In this document: in pieces, positions 33,739-43,310 of the stretch | Layout: each line of letters starts with the position of its first letter | Position numbering within the stretch: the stretch's first letter is position 1 | Source: a bacterium | Lineage (GTDB): Bacteria; Sumerlaeota; Sumerlaeia; SLMS01; JAHLLQ01 | Direction: 5' to 3' | Length of the DNA: 64,000 bases | Assembly: GCA_020444065.1 (NCBI GenBank) | Contig: JAHLLQ010000001.1 | Location: forward strand, 310,001-374,000 | Notes under the pieces: model-generated | What the model was told of the DNA's origin: nothing | Seen by the model: the letters and a program-made list of their open reading frames with translations, nothing else | The model's database searches: none | Program-made: the position numbers and the translations under genes

Positions 33739-34851
33739 TCAACCGATTAGCGTCGGCTCCGGCTGCAGTTCGTAGAAGAAATTGCGCCGGCGCGGTGTGA
33801 ATCCCGCCTCCGAGATCAAATTGCGCAACGTTTCCTCCGTCATGCGGAACTCCGCACCGGCTGCGCGGACGACGTTTTCCTCGATCATGATCGATCCCAT
33901 GTCGTCGCAGCCGTAGAAGAGGCTGATCTGTCCGACGCGGCCACCCTGCGTGACCCAGGAGGCCTGCACGTGCTGGATGTTATCCAGATACAGCCGTGCG
34001 ATGGCCGTCGTGCGCAGGTAATCCCAGGAGCCGACCTCGCGGATGTTTCGCTCAGCGCCGAGCTTCGTGTTTTCCGTCTGGAACGTCCAATCGATAAATG
34101 CGGTGAATCCGCCCGTCTCATCCTGCAGTTCCCGAACGTGGCGGAAGTGCTCGATGCGCTCTTCCAGTGACTCCACGTGCCCGAACATCATCGTGGCAGT
34201 TGATCGTCCGCCCAGGCGATGCCAGGTGCGGTGGACCTCGAGCCATTCTTCGGTGCTGCACTTACCGCGCGTGATTTCGTTACGCACGCGATCGCTCAGG
34301 ATCTCCGCTCCCCCGCCGGGAATCGAGTCGAGCCCCGCCTCGCGGAGGCGCCCAAGGACTTCCTCATAGCCGATCCGGTTGATGCGCGAGAAAGCATGAA
34401 TCTCCGGTGCACTGAATGCGTGCAGATGAATGCCGAACTCCTTCTTGATGAAGCCCAGCATCTCCTCGTACCACTCCAGTTTGAGCCGCGGATGCATGCC
34501 GCCCTGGAGCAGAATCTGATCGCCGCCCAGGTCCTGGGTCTCAGCGATCTTCTGGCCGAGTTCCTCGTGCGAGAGGACATAGGCTTCAGGGTCGTTGAGC
34601 TTGCGGAAGAACGCGCAAAAGTCGCAGTCGGCCAGACAGACGTTCGTGTAGTTGACATTCCGATCCACGATGTAGGTGACAATCGGATCGGGATTCATGC
34701 GCCGGCGCACCGCCGAGGCCGCCACGGAAAGCTCCGGAAGTTGGGCGTGCTGGAACAGAACGAGCGCTTCCTCGTCCGTAATCCGCCGCTCTCCCTTGTT
34801 GCAGATCGCCAGAATCTCATCAATCTGTGCCTGGATGCTCGCTACCGTCAT
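33739..34851 (-). CDS. mqnC: Cyclic dehypoxanthinyl futalosine synthase
   Basis: This 370-residue radical SAM enzyme closes the ring of dehypoxanthinyl futalosine in the futalosine route to menaquinone. The cluster motif is CLADCDFCAF. Other family patterns are GGDQILLQGGMHP, SIPGGGAEIL and ATMMFGHVE. The related CofH and MqnE enzymes are less good fits. No other mqn gene is in the window. It overlaps no neighbour but abuts the SLC13 stop. Confidence 0.92.
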   Translation of the reverse strand: MTVASIQAQIDEILAICNKGERRITDEEALVLFQHAQLPELSVAASAVRRRMNPDPIVTYIVDRNVNYTNVCLADCDFCAFFRKLNDPEAYVLSHEELGQKIAETQDLGGDQILLQGGMHPRLKLEWYEEMLGFIKKEFGIHLHAFSAPEIHAFSRINRIGYEEVLGRLREAGLDSIPGGGAEILSDRVRNEITRGKCSTEEWLEVHRTWHRLGGRSTATMMFGHVESLEERIEHFRHVRELQDETGGFTAFIDWTFQTENTKLGAERNIREVGSWDYLRTTAIARLYLDNIQHVQASWVTQGGRVGQISLFYGCDDMGSIMIEENVVRAAGAEFRMTEETLRNLISEAGFTPRRRNFFYELQPEPTLIG

Positions 34852-35077
34852 TTTGAGGTCCCATTCTTCCTGGATTCTTGCCTGGAGGCCGGTTTTCCGG
34901 CTGCATGCCCTTGACCCCGTTGCCGGGGCCCGTGTTTTCTAAGGGCACTAGCAGGAGCGAGGCCAGGGAAAAGGCAATTTCGCATTGGCGCCGGATGCCC
35001 GTGCTGGCAGGATTTCGTGCGTCGTCAGGCATGAATCGCCCTCGCTTCCAAGATCGATCGGCAGAAGAGCACGCCCT

Positions 35078-35932
35078 ATGGCACACCGCAGTCTCACAGC
35101 CCTGGTTTTCAGCGGATTCACGCCCACGACGTCCGCCACGATCATCTCGATGCTCGGTGACGATGGGCTGCCGGGCGATATTCGGATCGTCCAGGAATTG
35201 ACAGACCAGCCCTGGCGCACCAGCCGCTCGGGCCTGCTCGTGATGAGCATGGACCCGAATACCGACCTGGCAAAGGTGTCTCACTACATCCAGGACCGCA
35301 CGACCTGGTGGGAAGTGGTCGTGTGCCTGACCGAGAGCATCTGGGCATACGAGCCTGCCTTGCTGGCCCAGGGAGCGGTCAAGGTCATCCCCCACCCGGA
35401 GGATGAGCTGAGCCGTTGTCGCGACGAGCTCCGCAACCTGCTCTCAATCCTCTCGATGCACATGACCGACATCCTGGGGCTGGAGCTGGCGGATCTACTG
35501 CAGCTTTACGGCGACAAGCGCGTTCCGAAGACGATCCGAATCTGCGGCGAAGGCGTGATCGGTTCGATTTACATGCGCAATGGGAACATTGTTCATGCCG
35601 AGACGATCGACGAAATTGAAGGCGTGAAAGCCTTCAATCGGCTGTTCGCCGTCAAGGCCCCCGAGATTCGTGTTCACAACGGCTGCCTGACGTCGAAGAA
35701 CACCGTGAATCAGCCGGTCATGTCTGTCATGCTCGAGGGCGCCCGGATTAACGATGAGGTCGAGCGGGATTCCATCGAGTTCATGGGCCAACCGGAGGCG
35801 CCGACTGCTGAAGACGTCAGCCAATCGCTCTCGGAGATTTTCGAAGAACTCGACATCCCCGTTTCGGGCGAAGTCTCAAAGTCGGATGTGGACTCGGACT
35901 TCGACTCGGATCTCGATGAATTGGATTTCTGA
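35078..35932 (+). CDS. Receiver-like plus DUF4388 (PATAN-type) protein
   Basis: This 284-residue cytosolic protein starts with about 125 residues of alternating strand and helix (TALVFSGFTPTTSATIISML, VVVCLTESIWAYEPALLAQGAVKVIPHP) resembling a receiver domain without clear phospho-acceptor context. A DUF4388 domain follows (ADLLQLYGDKRVPKTIRI, GSIYMRNGNIVHAETIDEIEGVKAFNRLF). The acidic tail has Ser-Asp repeats (DVDSDFDSDLDELDF). DUF4388 proteins occur in signalling and motility contexts. The start ATG has a weak ribosome site. Confidence 0.8.
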   Translation: MAHRSLTALVFSGFTPTTSATIISMLGDDGLPGDIRIVQELTDQPWRTSRSGLLVMSMDPNTDLAKVSHYIQDRTTWWEVVVCLTESIWAYEPALLAQGAVKVIPHPEDELSRCRDELRNLLSILSMHMTDILGLELADLLQLYGDKRVPKTIRICGEGVIGSIYMRNGNIVHAETIDEIEGVKAFNRLFAVKAPEIRVHNGCLTSKNTVNQPVMSVMLEGARINDEVERDSIEFMGQPEAPTAEDVSQSLSEIFEELDIPVSGEVSKSDVDSDFDSDLDELDF

Positions 35933-35960
35933 TTTCAACCCCCACCGCCGGAGGCCGACT

Positions 35961-36431
35961 GTGGCGATTCTGAGAACCGCAATCCTGGGAATTCTTGTGC
36001 TTTGGGCAACAGGCTGTGCCTCGATGCCAACCGCAGGAAAGGTCGCGCTGACTCCACTGACCGGAGTCCGCGACATCGTGGATGCGCCATTGATGTCGCT
36101 CACGAACGTCTTTGAGATGTGGGCGGATGCAAGCAACCCCAACCCAACGCCGGGGGCGAACATTGGCTGGACCTGGCGCGGAGGATTCGACGCCGGAATC
36201 GGCCTGAATGTCAGCTACCTGCTGTTCAAAGGCCTGTCCGGCATTTTCGGCGTCGTCGACTACATCCCCTGCCGTTCGCTCTATCCGAATTTCGCCAAGG
36301 GCGTCAGTCCGTGGAAGAAGCCCGACCAGACGTGGGGCAGCATGTACTTCCCGAACTCGAAGGCCCTGTGGGCGGAACCGCCGCCCGAGGATGACCCACC
36401 GCCGCCTCCTCCACAGGCGCGCCAGGATTGA
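35961..36431 (+). CDS. Small lipoprotein, unknown
   Basis: This 156-residue protein starts at GTG with GGAGG six bases upstream. The signal peptide ends in lipobox ATGC with C19. The mature part has VRDIVDAPLMSLTNVFEMW and LLFKGLSGIFGVVDYIPCRSLYP, patterns seen in exosortase-independent envelope lipoproteins of uncultured lineages, and a Pro-rich end. It lies 28 bases after the DUF4388 gene and may be cotranscribed. Confidence 0.8.
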   Translation: MAILRTAILGILVLWATGCASMPTAGKVALTPLTGVRDIVDAPLMSLTNVFEMWADASNPNPTPGANIGWTWRGGFDAGIGLNVSYLLFKGLSGIFGVVDYIPCRSLYPNFAKGVSPWKKPDQTWGSMYFPNSKALWAEPPPEDDPPPPPPQARQD

Positions 36432-36535: not shown

Positions 36536-38215
36536 GTGCTCGCAATCTCAGCCAGCGACAAAGCCTACTTCCGCCGCCTGTGGCAATACTGGCGCGATCG
36601 CCACGATAATCCGATGGTGATGTATGGGGTTATTAGCGGCAGAAGTCTCGGCCATCGTGCGCTGAATATCAAACTGCTCACGATTACATCGGTCCTCGGC
36701 TTCTCCATTCCGCTCGTCTTCCTCCTGTACCGAATCAACATGTCAGTATCCCGACTGCTGGAGCACTTCACGCTTCTGAGTCTCCTTCTCTCACCTGTAG
36801 TATCAATCCTGCCTGCGATCAGTCTGCACACATTCGCGCCCGGGCGTCGCTGCGAACACCTTCTCTCGGAACTCCGTACAACGAACACATCCTCAGGCGA
36901 GTTGGCATTTGGCGCTGTCTGGCTGGGGTTGCGGTCCCACCTGATCGTCATGCTCCCGCTCTTTCTGGGCTATGCAGCGGCAGCGATGATCGTCCTCTCC
37001 AGCGCTCATGATTCCATGCTCGCTCGTTATTATTTCGAGGACCGATGGATGAATACGGAGCGACTGGTCATGCTGGTGCTCGCAACGACCGCCATGTGGA
37101 TCTGGGCGTTGCTGATCGCAATTCGATGCTGGCTGGTATGGAAGGATCGGCTTGTAGAGAGCATCCTGATTCCTCCGATCGTCGCGTTCTGTCGCATGTT
37201 TGTAGGCCTTGCCGTCTTATTCGCGACCTTCAGCGGCCCTGCCGTGTTCCTCCAGGAATTCATGGACTTTCCATCTGAGTCTGCCGAATTGGTTGGCGGA
37301 TTCATAACCATTGTTGTGCTGGTGATCCTGCTGGCTGCCACGATCCGCGACGGATTGCGGGAGGTGGGACGTCACTCCGGCGCCAAATTCCTCTACGCGG
37401 TCGATCAAGTCGAATTGCAGGATCGTTCATGGCTGGAGAACGAAGCCGCAAGTCGACTGGAAAAGGCCGAGAGACGCGCCGCGCTGAAGGAGCAGGGGAA
37501 GCGACTCCACTTGTCGCCCACAATGATTACCGCATCGCTTGGCCTGTCGATGGTCCTGATCGGTCTGCTCGCCATCCTGATGCACAAGGCCGCCTTGCCG
37601 CCCGAGGTCCCGTCGGCGAATGGCCGCAGCTGGTCCTTTGGAGACTACGAACTCCTCGCGATTTTCGCCTTCGCCGTTCAGGCGGTTCTCCCGTCGCTGT
37701 TCTTTGCAATCACGATGGCAGCCGTACACATCAAGGGGCGCTCCATCCCTCTCGTCTCCGGTGCTTTGATCGGAGGCACAAGCAACCTTGCCATGCGCTT
37801 CCTCCTTTGGGCGCAAATCCCCTCGCTGCTTTGCGCGGGAATCACGATCTTCGCTGTTGTGCCAACCTACCAGTGGAGAGTTTTCCTCTTCCTATTCGAG
37901 GGAATTCTGTCTCTTCTCTTTCAAATCCTGTTCCTGCTCCTTACGTCGCTCTGCTGGCTGCGCTGGAGGAGCTCGCTGATCTTTCTGCCTTTTCTCTTAT
38001 CCTTCTCCGCATCATTTCTGTTAGTGATCGAGTTCTTTACGGTGGGCGCAGGCGGGTACTCGGATCGCGAGATCCTCATGCTCGTTTCCGCACCGACATT
38101 GATCGGCCTGCTGGCTCTCTACTTCTCCGTCTTCCGCCTGTGGGATTGGCTTCAAGAAGTACACGATCGGCACCTGCGCGGGGTTCCGCGTCACACCATC
38201 GCGGAGATCGAGTGA
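36536..38215 (+). CDS. Tandem membrane paralogue 1 of 4 (ABC-2-permease-like)
   Basis: This 559-residue polytopic protein starts at GTG after a GGGGGAC ribosome site. The cytosolic N-terminus is FRRLWQYWRDRHDNPMVMYG, followed by roughly 12 hydrophobic helices in two halves. Between the halves is the cytosolic motif LQDRSWLENEAASRLEKAERR, and the end is WDWLQEVHDRHLRGVPRHTIAEIE. The DNPMV..G..R..G start recalls NP-xx-E-RxRxR starts of ABC-2 permeases, but no ATPase gene is adjacent. It is the first of four paralogues in one operon. Function unknown. Confidence 0.8.
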   Translation: MLAISASDKAYFRRLWQYWRDRHDNPMVMYGVISGRSLGHRALNIKLLTITSVLGFSIPLVFLLYRINMSVSRLLEHFTLLSLLLSPVVSILPAISLHTFAPGRRCEHLLSELRTTNTSSGELAFGAVWLGLRSHLIVMLPLFLGYAAAAMIVLSSAHDSMLARYYFEDRWMNTERLVMLVLATTAMWIWALLIAIRCWLVWKDRLVESILIPPIVAFCRMFVGLAVLFATFSGPAVFLQEFMDFPSESAELVGGFITIVVLVILLAATIRDGLREVGRHSGAKFLYAVDQVELQDRSWLENEAASRLEKAERRAALKEQGKRLHLSPTMITASLGLSMVLIGLLAILMHKAALPPEVPSANGRSWSFGDYELLAIFAFAVQAVLPSLFFAITMAAVHIKGRSIPLVSGALIGGTSNLAMRFLLWAQIPSLLCAGITIFAVVPTYQWRVFLFLFEGILSLLFQILFLLLTSLCWLRWRSSLIFLPFLLSFSASFLLVIEFFTVGAGGYSDREILMLVSAPTLIGLLALYFSVFRLWDWLQEVHDRHLRGVPRHTIAEIE

Positions 38216-38310
38216 GTCCCCATGCGCCTTCTCTCCGAAGAAGATGGAGCCTACTTCCGTCGCCTGTGGCAATACTGGCGCGATCGCCACGATAATCCGA
38301 TGGTGATGTA
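38162..38310 (+). repeat. Junction repeat A between membrane paralogues 1 and 2
   Basis: This 149-bp block spans the 3' end of paralogue 1, the 6-base spacer and the 5' end of paralogue 2. It matches 39845-39993 at roughly 95% including silent sites. The 5' part also matches about 60 bases at 36561-36624. Confidence 0.85.
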
Positions 38311-39898
38311 CGCGAAACTCCGCGGCCGTCGTCTTGGACATCACATCCTGAACATCAAGATGCTGAGCATCACCTCGGCGATCGGCTTGTGCCTTCCGTT
38401 CGCAGCATCGATAACACTGTGGCGAAAAGGTTCCTATGATTATCTCCAGTGGTTTGCGCTGCTGAGTATGGCCGTACTTGCGTTCAGTCTGCTCGTGCCG
38501 ATTCTCATATTGCGCGTCTTCTCACCCGGTCGAAATGAGAAGGCCCTTTTGTCCGAGTTGTACCTGACACGAACCTCTGCGGACGAGATTGCCTTCGGTG
38601 CCCTCTGGTACGGGCTGCGCGCGTACGTGTTGCTTCTCATCCCGATTCTGCTGGGATACCTGATCGTCGCCATCCTTGCTTTTTCCCATCTCAGTGCAAA
38701 CAGGGGGAATCCCTACTATGTCTGGATGATGTGGAGACATGGAACGCGCGTATTGCTGTGGACCATCGGAATACTAGTAGGATGCACTTGGGGGTTGTTG
38801 AACGCGGCCAGGTGCTGGCTTGGATGGACGCAGTCCTGGTGGAAAGCCCTTCTCATCTCGACTGTGGTGACAGTCATATGGATATCCGTTGGGTGGCTGC
38901 TTGGAATCATCGTTCTCTCCGCCACGACAACCACGTTCCGGGTTGCTTACGACGTCACAGATGTAGTCCAGGTTGCCGTTCCAATGCTCATTGTTACCGG
39001 CGTCCTGATGATCCTTTCTCTTGTCATGGCCTGCCGCATGATTCGCAGCGCCGGGAGAAACGCGGGCGCGAAATTCTTCCGAGGGGTCAGTGAGGAGAAC
39101 CTCCAGGACGCCTCCTGGTTCGCGAATGAAGCCGCCGGACGCCTCGAACCGCTCAAACGGCGCACAGCCAGCAGAGAACTCCAACGCCGACTCCACATCA
39201 CGTTTGGCTCTGAAACGATTGCAGTGATTCTCTCTGCCGTTCTGATCCTGCTCTGCACCTGGGTGATTCGAAAGGGGCTTCTCATCCCTGCTCTGCTCGT
39301 GAATAAGGAATCATTCGTGCTCCTGGAGGCATCGGATCGCCAGATCCTCAACGGTGCGCAAACAGTCTGGGCGCCGGTCGCTTTGCTGCTTCTTCTGGAA
39401 TGGAGAAGATGCCGGAAGCAGCCTATCGCCATCATCGCCGGTGGACTTCTCCAGACCATCCTTCGCCTTGCTCTTCCAATCATGCCGCCTATCGCTATCT
39501 TGATCGCGATTGGATCCTACTTCTCGATGGAAGAACCCGCCGCGGGCATGGCAACGCACTTCTACATCCTCTGGGGTGCAGGCGCTATCGGCTTCCTCGG
39601 ACTTCAGCTCGTTCTCACCTGCAGTGCGGCGGTATTCTGGCTGCGCTTCCATCAAAGCCGTTGGTTTCTCCCCTACGCCATCCTACTCACACTCGTGACT
39701 CTGGCAATGACGCAAGCCGACGTCCAGATGGCCTACCCACGGCTGCTGCCGTGGCCGAATATCCTCTTCTCGGCACTGCCACTGGCCGGTTTCTGGATCT
39801 ACTACCTCTCTGTTTTCCGCCTCTGGGATTCCCTGCAGGACATCCACGACCGGCACCTGCGCGGGGTTCCGCGTCACACCATCGTGGAGATCGAGTGA
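38222..39898 (+). CDS. Tandem membrane paralogue 2 of 4 (ABC-2-permease-like)
   Basis: This 558-residue polytopic protein lies 6 bases after paralogue 1. It shares the N-terminal FRRLWQYWRDRHDNPMVMY, AFGALWYGLRAYVLLLIP, the mid-loop LQDASWFANEAAGRLEPLKRR and the end HDRHLRGVPRHTIVEIE. Its membrane helices are diverged from those of copy 1. The start codon region is almost identical in DNA to that of copy 3. No ATP-binding or catalytic motif is visible. Confidence 0.8.
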   Translation: MRLLSEEDGAYFRRLWQYWRDRHDNPMVMYAKLRGRRLGHHILNIKMLSITSAIGLCLPFAASITLWRKGSYDYLQWFALLSMAVLAFSLLVPILILRVFSPGRNEKALLSELYLTRTSADEIAFGALWYGLRAYVLLLIPILLGYLIVAILAFSHLSANRGNPYYVWMMWRHGTRVLLWTIGILVGCTWGLLNAARCWLGWTQSWWKALLISTVVTVIWISVGWLLGIIVLSATTTTFRVAYDVTDVVQVAVPMLIVTGVLMILSLVMACRMIRSAGRNAGAKFFRGVSEENLQDASWFANEAAGRLEPLKRRTASRELQRRLHITFGSETIAVILSAVLILLCTWVIRKGLLIPALLVNKESFVLLEASDRQILNGAQTVWAPVALLLLLEWRRCRKQPIAIIAGGLLQTILRLALPIMPPIAILIAIGSYFSMEEPAAGMATHFYILWGAGAIGFLGLQLVLTCSAAVFWLRFHQSRWFLPYAILLTLVTLAMTQADVQMAYPRLLPWPNILFSALPLAGFWIYYLSVFRLWDSLQDIHDRHLRGVPRHTIVEIE

Positions 39899-39993
39899 GT
39901 CCCCATGCGCCTTCTCTCCGAAGAAGATGGAGCCTGCTTTCGCCGCCTGTGGCAATACTGGCGCAATCGCCGCGATAATCCGATGGTGATGTA
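39845..39993 (+). repeat. Junction repeat B between membrane paralogues 2 and 3
   Basis: This is the 149-bp partner of 38162-38310, same length, with only about seven or eight differences across coding and spacer bases. Confidence 0.85.
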
Positions 39994-41572
39994 TGGTCAG
40001 ATACGTGGGCGACGGGTCGGGCTTCGCGTGATTGGGATCGTGCTGGTCCTTCTTTCGATCGTGCTTGGCTTCTTGTATCCGCTGGGCAGATTAGCCTATG
40101 ATGCGATAACATTCGAACCGACGATGTGGTTGCCGTCGCCAGTTCTTCTGGTCAACGCCGCCGAATCGAAAGCCGTCCTCTTCCTGCTCCTTGCGGGCCT
40201 ATTCTTGCCACCCCTTTGTCTCTCCCTCTACGGCATCAACATAAGTCGGGAAGATGGTTTGGCCGAATTGGACCTTTCCGCATTTTCCCGGGAGGAACTT
40301 GCATTCGGCGCGATCGTGCCAGCCGTCGAGAGACTGATTGTGCTGGTCTTTCCAGCATTCCTAACCATCGCATCTTGCGCTGTTCTGAGGCCTGCCTTTG
40401 GTCTAAAGGACAGCATTGCATCGCCCCTGGTCGCGGCCGTTCTTTCCTTGATCATCTCTGGGAGTGCAGGGGCAGTTTGTTCGATTTGGGCCCTATGTAT
40501 TGCTGTCAGAATCTGGCCTACAAATCGTGATCGCTCCTGGGTGACTTTCCTGACAACATCTGCGATAATGTTAGCCTGGGTCTCCCTCCTGCTCTTCTTG
40601 AACATTGCGTGCTCCGTGATGATAAGGGCCCTGCTCCCCCGCGATCCGAGCAGCCTATTCTTCCAGCCATTTATTCCTGCGATTATTGGGATAGTCCTCC
40701 CCGCGATCGCCATTACGCCGCGCGTAGTTTGTGGAGCGTGCCGCAATGCGGGCAGCAAGTACTTCCGTCAAGTAGATCCGGAGGGACTACAGGATCGATC
40801 CTGGATCGCCAACGAGATCGCCGGCCGCCGAGAGCGCAAGCAGCGTCGCGTGGACTTAGCGAAGATCCTCCAGCCTGCACGTCCTTCTCCAATCAGAACA
40901 CTCATCCTCACGATGCTAGTCCTCGCAGTACTGGCAGGATTCCAGGTTTTTGTCATGCGCCTCTACCATCCATACGCGTTTGGCCAGCCCAAACCTCATT
41001 GGTTCGCATGCCTCGCGCTTGCGCCGATGATGGCATTTCTGGCTTCCGCTCTTAGCAACAAACTGAGAGGTCAACAGTCTGTACTGCTCGTTGGCGGCCT
41101 GATTCCGTCGATTTCCCATCGGGCCGAACGCTACTGGCTCTATGCGGCTTTCCCAACAGCTTGCTGGATTGCATTCTGGTACGGCGTTCCTGCGTGGCAT
41201 GAACCGCGGATGATCATTCGTATCGTGTTCTGTTCGCTTGCTATCCTGGCCGCCCAGGCGCTCCTGCTCTTCCTCGCCGCCGTTGTGTGGCATCGCAATG
41301 GTCTGAATATCCAATCCGTCGCAATCTGGTTCGGAGTTCTCCTGGCGGGACTTGGACCCTCCGCATCTGATCCTCTCCTGGGAATGCCGTTATTCTCCTC
41401 CTCGACAGGTAGCCACGGATGGCTGATCTCCTTCCTGATCGAGTTGCCGACTTCGATCCTGATGGCCTGGGTATACTACCTCTTCGTCTTCCGCCTGTGG
41501 GATTGGCTGCAGGACATCCATGATCTCCATTTGCGCGGCAGACCGAGGCATGAAATTGTGACGCTCGATTGA
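39905..41572 (+). CDS. Tandem membrane paralogue 3 of 4 (ABC-2-permease-like)
   Basis: This 555-residue polytopic protein lies 6 bases after paralogue 2. Family landmarks are FRRLWQYWRNRRDNPMVMYG, AFGAIVPAVERLIVLVFP, LQDRSWIANEIAGRRERKQRR and WDWLQDIHDLHLRGRPRHEIVTLD. The N-terminal residues MRLLSEEDGACF are the same as in copy 2 apart from one residue. The rest has diverged, with about 12 predicted helices. No partner ATPase nearby. Confidence 0.8.
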   Translation: MRLLSEEDGACFRRLWQYWRNRRDNPMVMYGQIRGRRVGLRVIGIVLVLLSIVLGFLYPLGRLAYDAITFEPTMWLPSPVLLVNAAESKAVLFLLLAGLFLPPLCLSLYGINISREDGLAELDLSAFSREELAFGAIVPAVERLIVLVFPAFLTIASCAVLRPAFGLKDSIASPLVAAVLSLIISGSAGAVCSIWALCIAVRIWPTNRDRSWVTFLTTSAIMLAWVSLLLFLNIACSVMIRALLPRDPSSLFFQPFIPAIIGIVLPAIAITPRVVCGACRNAGSKYFRQVDPEGLQDRSWIANEIAGRRERKQRRVDLAKILQPARPSPIRTLILTMLVLAVLAGFQVFVMRLYHPYAFGQPKPHWFACLALAPMMAFLASALSNKLRGQQSVLLVGGLIPSISHRAERYWLYAAFPTACWIAFWYGVPAWHEPRMIIRIVFCSLAILAAQALLLFLAAVVWHRNGLNIQSVAIWFGVLLAGLGPSASDPLLGMPLFSSSTGSHGWLISFLIELPTSILMAWVYYLFVFRLWDWLQDIHDLHLRGRPRHEIVTLD

Positions 41573-41585
41573 ACGTCCCCGAGGG

Positions 41586-43310
41586 GTGATCCCAGTGTTC
41601 GTACCGAATGCGGAAGATAGGGCCTACCTGCGGCGCCTGCATGGGTACTGGCGCGACCGGCATGACAATCCGCTGGTCATCTATGGGCGCGCGCGCAGCC
41701 GCAGTCTTGGATCGCGAACGCTCTTCTTCCTTCTCTTCTGCGCAACGGCATTGGGCGGCCTGATCCTCCCTTGGGGCGGCTGGCTTCTGGCGATGATTTT
41801 CAGCACCGGCAGCAGCTACTCGCAGCTCTGGAACACGCTGATGCCACTTGCGGTCTACATGTTCTTCGGGGTCATGGGGTCGTCGCTGGTCGTGCCATAC
41901 TTGAGCCTCGTTCTGTTCGCGCACGGCTGTCGGGACGCGGATCAACTGACCGATCTGGCCGTCACGTCGATGTCGCGGGATGAAATCGCATTCGGCGCCG
42001 TGTGGAATGGGACAAAGGCCTTCATCATCCTGATGATTCCGCCGTTGATCGGCCTGACGCTCTCGGCCGCCTCGATTCCGATCGCGTACATCGTCGAGGA
42101 AGGTCTCGACAATGATGCCGAGATCCTGCTGGCGATTATCCCGGTCGTTTTGATGTTCTACATTGCGGCGACTGTAACTTGCGCCTGGACGTTTCTGGCG
42201 GTCGTTCGCTGCTGGCTCTGCTGGCGCAAGAAACTTGTCCGGCTCTTCTTCCTGCCTCCCATGATCGCTTCCTTGTGGCTTGGCATCCCATGGATGGTTG
42301 GGTTTGCTTGCATCCTGGGACCGGCCTTCTTCCTGTTGGAAGTTGTCAATGCCGCCAATCGCCATGAGGAGTACGTGTTCATCGGCACTCTGAACTTCGC
42401 CCTGCTCGTGGAAATCGTTCTGGTGGCCTTGCTCTCGATCCGGATACTGCGAGGGGCAGGGTTTCTGGCCGGCGAAAAATACTTCCGATCCCTCGAGCCC
42501 GTCGAGTTGCAAGAGAAGTCCTGGCTGGCGAACGAAGCGGCCTGTCGAGTTGAAGCGGGTCTGCGACGTGCGGCTAACAAGGAACTCCACGCCCGCACCG
42601 GCCGCTCTTACTTCCCGTTCTTCTCTTCCCTGCTGGGAACGGGCGGGTTCCTGCTACTGATTGCACTCGCGCAGACACAACTCTTTGAGCATTTCCGAGA
42701 TGGCGAGTTCCTGGTCATCTTCATCACCAATCTGACAATCTGGCCCGCCATGGCGTTGGCCGTATATGGATTCACGCAGGCGAGACAGGATCGATTGGCT
42801 GCCATTGCCGGCGGCCTGATCCCTACGATTCGTCGATTCGCGCTCCCATTCCTCCTATACTCGCTCATTCCCACGACGCTCATTATCGGTTTCTCACTGG
42901 CTCGCAGTATCTTCAACATCGAAGAGTTCATCGTTGTCACGCTGGCCACTCTCTTAGGAACGATCTCCAGTCAGGCGGTACTGCTCATTATCTGCGCCGC
43001 GGTTTTGCTCCGGTATCGAGGTGCCCTTTGGGTTGCAATCCTGTGGTGGTGCCTCTCGCTCATTTTCGTTCTCTCCCTCTCCATGCTTGTTCATGGCGAC
43101 TCCAGCAATTCAGATGGGCTACTGTTCTGGGCGTGGGTGTTGTTGTTCATTCCGGGAGTCACGCTGAACAGCATCATCGGCTTTCGTTTCTGGAATTGGA
43201 TGCAAGCAATCCACGATCGCCACTTGCGCGACCATCCAAAACATGCGGTTTTGTCTATTCTCAGGGAAGACTCAGTCGAGAGCGTTCTCGAATTCGACGG
43301 CGACGCCTAA
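41586..43310 (+). CDS. Tandem membrane paralogue 4 of 4 (ABC-2-permease-like)
   Basis: This 574-residue protein is the most divergent of the array. It lies 13 bases after paralogue 3. Landmarks are YLRRLHGYWRDRHDNPLVIYG, AFGAVWNGTKAFIILMIPP, LQEKSWLANEAACRVEAGLRR and WNWMQAIHDRHLRDHPKHAVL, with an extra acidic tail of about 20 residues (SVESVLEFDGDA). Its DNA at the ends does not share the junction repeats, so it has escaped homogenisation. The last bases overlap the 3' end of the convergent TatD gene. Confidence 0.8.
   Translation: MIPVFVPNAEDRAYLRRLHGYWRDRHDNPLVIYGRARSRSLGSRTLFFLLFCATALGGLILPWGGWLLAMIFSTGSSYSQLWNTLMPLAVYMFFGVMGSSLVVPYLSLVLFAHGCRDADQLTDLAVTSMSRDEIAFGAVWNGTKAFIILMIPPLIGLTLSAASIPIAYIVEEGLDNDAEILLAIIPVVLMFYIAATVTCAWTFLAVVRCWLCWRKKLVRLFFLPPMIASLWLGIPWMVGFACILGPAFFLLEVVNAANRHEEYVFIGTLNFALLVEIVLVALLSIRILRGAGFLAGEKYFRSLEPVELQEKSWLANEAACRVEAGLRRAANKELHARTGRSYFPFFSSLLGTGGFLLLIALAQTQLFEHFRDGEFLVIFITNLTIWPAMALAVYGFTQARQDRLAAIAGGLIPTIRRFALPFLLYSLIPTTLIIGFSLARSIFNIEEFIVVTLATLLGTISSQAVLLIICAAVLLRYRGALWVAILWWCLSLIFVLSLSMLVHGDSSNSDGLLFWAWVLLFIPGVTLNSIIGFRFWNWMQAIHDRHLRDHPKHAVLSILREDSVESVLEFDGDA

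Follow-up and report, generated by a model that had tools for sequence, protein, structure and literature searches.

The window analyzed here, a 64,000-nucleotide stretch of a Sumerlaeota genome, carries a four-gene tandem array (genes A to D, arranged head to tail on the + strand at positions 36536-43310) in which some of the junctions between neighboring genes are nearly identical at silent and non-coding positions, whereas the coding bodies are highly diverged. This pattern is most probably the product of homologous recombination over short tracts, either by gene conversion or by unequal crossing-over, between the resident paralogues, surviving only where the gene ends are still alike. Such recombination between resident copies is supported by the silent-site identity, the identity of the spacers, the confinement of the similarity to gene ends, and its recurrence in related genomes.

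An unclassified family of membrane proteins

Gene A (36536..38215, + strand) has a GTG start and encodes a polytopic membrane protein of 559 amino acids. It is followed on the same strand by its paralogues, genes B (38222..39898; 558 amino acids), C (39905..41572; 555), and D (41586..43310; 574), giving a range of 555 to 574 residues for the array; the protein bodies of B to D are 31-35% identical to that of A, and the protein ends are among the best-conserved parts in all four genes. These genes are the only family members in their genome, a 5.2-Mb draft of 14 contigs, and the array lies inside a 1.26-Mb contig. A candidate fifth copy on contig C6 proved to be a chance match of 44 residues in an unrelated frame. 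Upstream of the array, positions 34985-36431 of the window contain two overlapping frames, one with a DUF4388 domain and the other coding for a small protein whose tail is rich in proline and for which no family match was found.

No Pfam or NCBIfam assignment was found for gene A or for the array family as a whole, and a scan of the genome contigs for named relatives of the array found none. Membership in known groups of anti-phage defense proteins was rejected, as PADLOC profiles matched none of the 17 family members at E<=0.01; the MSEP-CTERM profile (TIGR04286) was also rejected, with a match to 1 of the 17 members at 24.7 bits against a curated cut-off of 150. Among solved structures, a sequence search produced a single match, which is not credible (E=0.63). 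In an hhalign comparison, the alignment of the 17 members with eight ABC-2 permeases detected by PF12679 spans 107 columns at the N terminus (E=0.0066; probability of 5.7%), a likeness too faint to establish a relationship, and it covers only 16 columns with the four window genes alone. Permeases of ∼510 residues that were found with PF12679 and start near a DNPIL motif are present in relatives and in the same genome (loci L158-L166). The AlphaFold model of protein A, for which four sequences served as input, is of low quality (pLDDT 54.5, pTM 0.38); in this low-confidence model the protein appears to be nearly all helix. A limited literature search on Sumerlaeota did not find an earlier report on this family, and the terms "paralog" and "gene conversion" are absent from PMC8092238, as judged by a term search.

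Homogenized gene ends in the array and in related genomes

Junction block J1 (38162..38310, + strand) comprises the tail of gene A, a 6-nt spacer, and the head of gene B, and junction block J2 (39845..39993, + strand) comprises the tail of B, the spacer, and the head of gene C. At an offset of 1683, the two blocks share 142 of 149 bases (95.3%), including the entire spacer (GTCCCC). All seven differences are transitions, and a 50-base identical run crosses the stop codon, the spacer, and the start codon, with identity dropping on either side. The head of gene A (36563..36625, + strand) is a further, third version of the block's start portion, matching B at 61 and C at 59 of the 63 positions. 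Where degenerate codons encode the same amino acid, the codon itself is shared in 34 of 37 cases within the block versus 72 of 214 in the bodies (48/127 for A-B and 24/87 for B-C; Fisher p=1.2e-11), where silent sites are saturated (pS of ∼0.4-1.05 per 20-codon window). Silent divergence along the array is thus clearly unequal, contrary to the equality that the first-pass annotation named as refuting its reading, and that annotation was correct in describing 149-bp blocks that are ∼95% alike even at silent and non-coding bases and are flanked by far more different coding bodies. Its characterization of the events as recent holds only relative to those bodies: 3 of the 37 same-amino-acid codons within the block already differ, so that the events, although young when set against the saturated bodies, are not evidently strain-level.

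When silent identity was scanned along the genes with a shuffle test, the best segment fell at the C terminus for A-B (14/14 codons; p=0.0072), whereas it fell at the N terminus for both B-C (19/21, p=0.0002) and A-C (12/12, p=0.0010). Given the 16 pairs tested, for which the Bonferroni limit is 0.0031, A-B does not pass when taken by itself. Gene C shares its head with A and B but not its tail, which has only 3 of 11 same codons with the B tail over the last 17 codons, and gene D is homogenized at neither end; the C/D junction (41513..41672, + strand), which serves as an internal control, shows no homogenization by alignment. Since the C tail and both D ends do not share the sequence, the homogenizing events touched the tails of A and B, the heads of B and C, and the head of A. 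The C head (39905-39993 of the window) carries four changes private to C as compared with A and B, three of which (Y to C, D to N, and H to R) affect residues that are kept, or nearly so, in A, B, and D. Among the four array genes, C also lies on the longest branch, and it may be under relaxed constraint.

Of 40 genomes of the phylum that were searched with the family profile, 11 gave a match, counting the genome of the window. Multi-gene arrays were found in the window genome and in the genomes designated G003 (four genes), G008 (three), and G007 (two); a further one in G004 was deduced at a contig edge, where the second gene is represented by ∼13 codons. The silent-segment test covered 16 within-array pairs from four of these five arrays, and in 5 of them the best segment had p<0.0075, each time at a gene end. 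The Bonferroni limit was passed by four pairs, namely the heads of A-C and B-C, the tails of G003 genes 3 and 4 (24/24 codons), and the tails of G008 genes 1 and 2 (42/46). Same-codon counts at the C terminus agree with this result, both for the G008 pair (35/39 versus 61/146; Fisher p=2.9e-8) and for the G003 pair (25/28 versus 66/142; Fisher p=1.6e-5). In G004, a stretch of 111 nt ahead of gene 1 recurs with 88% identity ahead of the next gene start, up to the contig edge; its upstream part is probably a non-coding leader. Neither same-codon counts nor the shuffle test detected a homogenized end in the two-gene array of G007. In G009, an in-frame TAG disrupts the family member at L133 3-1352, which is a possible pseudogene.

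Origin of the junction similarity

One alternative to recombination is that the junctions are kept alike by purifying selection on the nucleotide sequence itself, through an RNA structure, translational coupling, a ribosome site, or a promoter. The short spacers and a GGAG at the end of the upstream gene, by which a ribosome site may fall within the block, would suit this explanation. However, the block copies lack a stable or shared fold (z-scores of -1.04 and +0.45, with differing structures), no Rfam match was found, and gene D lies in the same array without the block. Moreover, the common ends vary from genome to genome: the tail of the third G003 gene (G003_3) has 72% protein identity to that of G003_4 versus 25% to that of G001_2 from a congeneric genome. 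Taken together, these observations make nucleotide constraint very unlikely.

A second alternative is cassette exchange, in which the ends would act as fixed recombination arms and the bodies would be swapped in from divergent donors. Like ends combined with unlike bodies fit such a scheme, as does the 149-bp direct repeat that flanks the body of B. The trees of gene bodies point the other way. The A-D bodies form one clade (support of 98/99 in the body-only tree and 100/100 in its repeat), the G008 (98/96) and G007 (100/100) bodies cluster by genome, and the G003 bodies cluster with the congener's G001_2 (93/94 in the repeat tree). The first body-only tree contained 21 rows, with G003_1 and G003_5 trimmed at the wrong place, and the repeat tree used 11 of the 21 rows with correct trims. 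With bodies clustering by genome or genus and signs of import absent, body import is not supported, cassette exchange has very little probability, and the module swapping proposed in the first-pass annotation finds no backing. Body trees place G003_3 with G001_2 (91/87 in the first body-only tree and 69/79 in another tree) and the C body outside A, B, and D. The direction of these placements conflicts with the similarity of the ends, but only weakly and without significance (AU p=0.22 for G003_3+G003_4 and 0.16 for A+B+C). The position of gene C shifts once the ends are removed from the tree, a warning that whole-gene trees of such arrays blend two histories.

Conservation of the protein ends could, together with codon bias, also yield identical DNA, and the ends are indeed among the most conserved protein parts of all four genes. 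This explanation is extremely unlikely: in a 40-codon stretch with a conserved internal motif (around LQDxSW), the codon is the same in only 9/21 and 9/22 cases, so that block identity is not explained by protein conservation, the heads of D and B share 11 of 19 same codons, and the spacer is identical as well. The internal-motif and gene D controls likewise rule out chance or codon bias. An assembly artefact, conceivable in a draft of 14 contigs, can be dismissed as next to impossible, as 7 sites distinguish the two copies, the short repeat is placed well within a large contig, and other assemblies show the same pattern at gene ends.

Recombination between the resident copies would have proceeded as follows. 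Genes A to D appear to be old tandem paralogues, and recombination between neighbors, presumably of the RecA type, would have copied the tail, spacer, and head of one junction onto the next, with the head of the block also copied onto gene A. The tracts are probably confined to gene ends because these encode the most conserved residues and thereby retain uninterrupted identity long enough to permit strand exchange; the bodies, in contrast, may be too diverged or their conversion may be selected against; selection would also keep the bodies different. RecA and MutS are both encoded in the genome, and MutS limits exchange to near-identical stretches. Conversion and unequal crossing-over, both named in the first-pass annotation, leave the same footprint and are indistinguishable here; recombination at the junctions as such is well supported by silent divergence and recurrence.

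The suggestion that recombination at the junctions may be a mechanism of copy-number change stands in part. At a syntenic locus in the congeneric genomes G001 (contig 33) and G003 (contig 117), one family gene corresponds to four; on one side the flanks correspond in each gene, a ParA-like and a ParB-like one (76% and 67% identity, respectively), and the loci also agree in the stretch beyond the array. Holding the four G003 genes together in the tree is disfavored, albeit not rejected (AU p=0.08). Genomes G002 and G004 have common flanks with one copy versus at least two, the latter count being the one deduced at the contig edge. Copy-number change within a genus is therefore indirectly supported, with the junction as a candidate crossover site. 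The genes adjoining the family locus in G001 and G003 (L131 2402-4295 and L021 385-2204) resemble parA and parB, and L131 2439-2527 contains two parS-like GTTTCACGTGAAAC sites. For the window, MqnC (33742-34851), encoded near the array, is 75% identical to its counterparts in two "Candidatus Sumerlaeota" metagenome-assembled genomes (L051 and L052) and at most 59% identical to those at the other 78 loci kept in the scan, which places the genome probably within or close to that phylum; family members were not found in L051 or L052, but the L052 sequence has its first base within MqnC and does not cover the side in question. In each of the six relatives searched, TatD, a neighbor of the array, and the family members occupy different contigs, which leaves the window locus without an ortholog for comparison.

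Comparison with known recombining paralogues

According to PMC9484751, the type VII secretion system immunity genes esaG and tipC form arrays of tandem non-identical paralogues with homology blocks of ∼55-100 nt, which include the gene end and the intergenic region in esaG and are located at the 5' and 3' ends in tipC; recombination between the blocks alters copy number, and strain comparisons show such change for esaG. The A-D array resembles these systems in having homology blocks at the gene ends and spacers of tandem paralogues. It differs in that its genes encode large membrane proteins of an unclassified family and its events are inferred, whereas strain-level events have been seen for the immunity genes and a central block recombines too in esaG. 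That the homogenized junctions are recurrent recombination sites at which whole, cleanly bounded genes are gained or lost while the bodies diversify under selection, maintaining an adaptive repertoire like that of the immunity-gene arrays, is a rather doubtful extension.

The bab adhesin paralogues of Helicobacter pylori, as described in PMC4552749, have N- and C-terminal homology regions and a variable middle, with gene conversion between loci. Homologous ends with a differing middle are common to both cases, but the bab genes are located at separate loci and their products are phase-variable outer-membrane proteins, in contrast to the contiguous array of polytopic membrane proteins seen here. 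Long-lasting concerted evolution in prokaryotes, in which paralogues are alike at both silent and replacement sites, has been read as gene conversion (PMC6053082); there, almost the entire gene is involved, with partial-sequence cases left by the authors for future work, whereas in A-D only the ends are affected. The process is thus a known one in a new gene family: an unclassified membrane-protein family of a little-studied lineage joins the bacterial arrays with end-only marks of recombination, and in this new example the pattern recurs in relatives and copy number differs within a genus.
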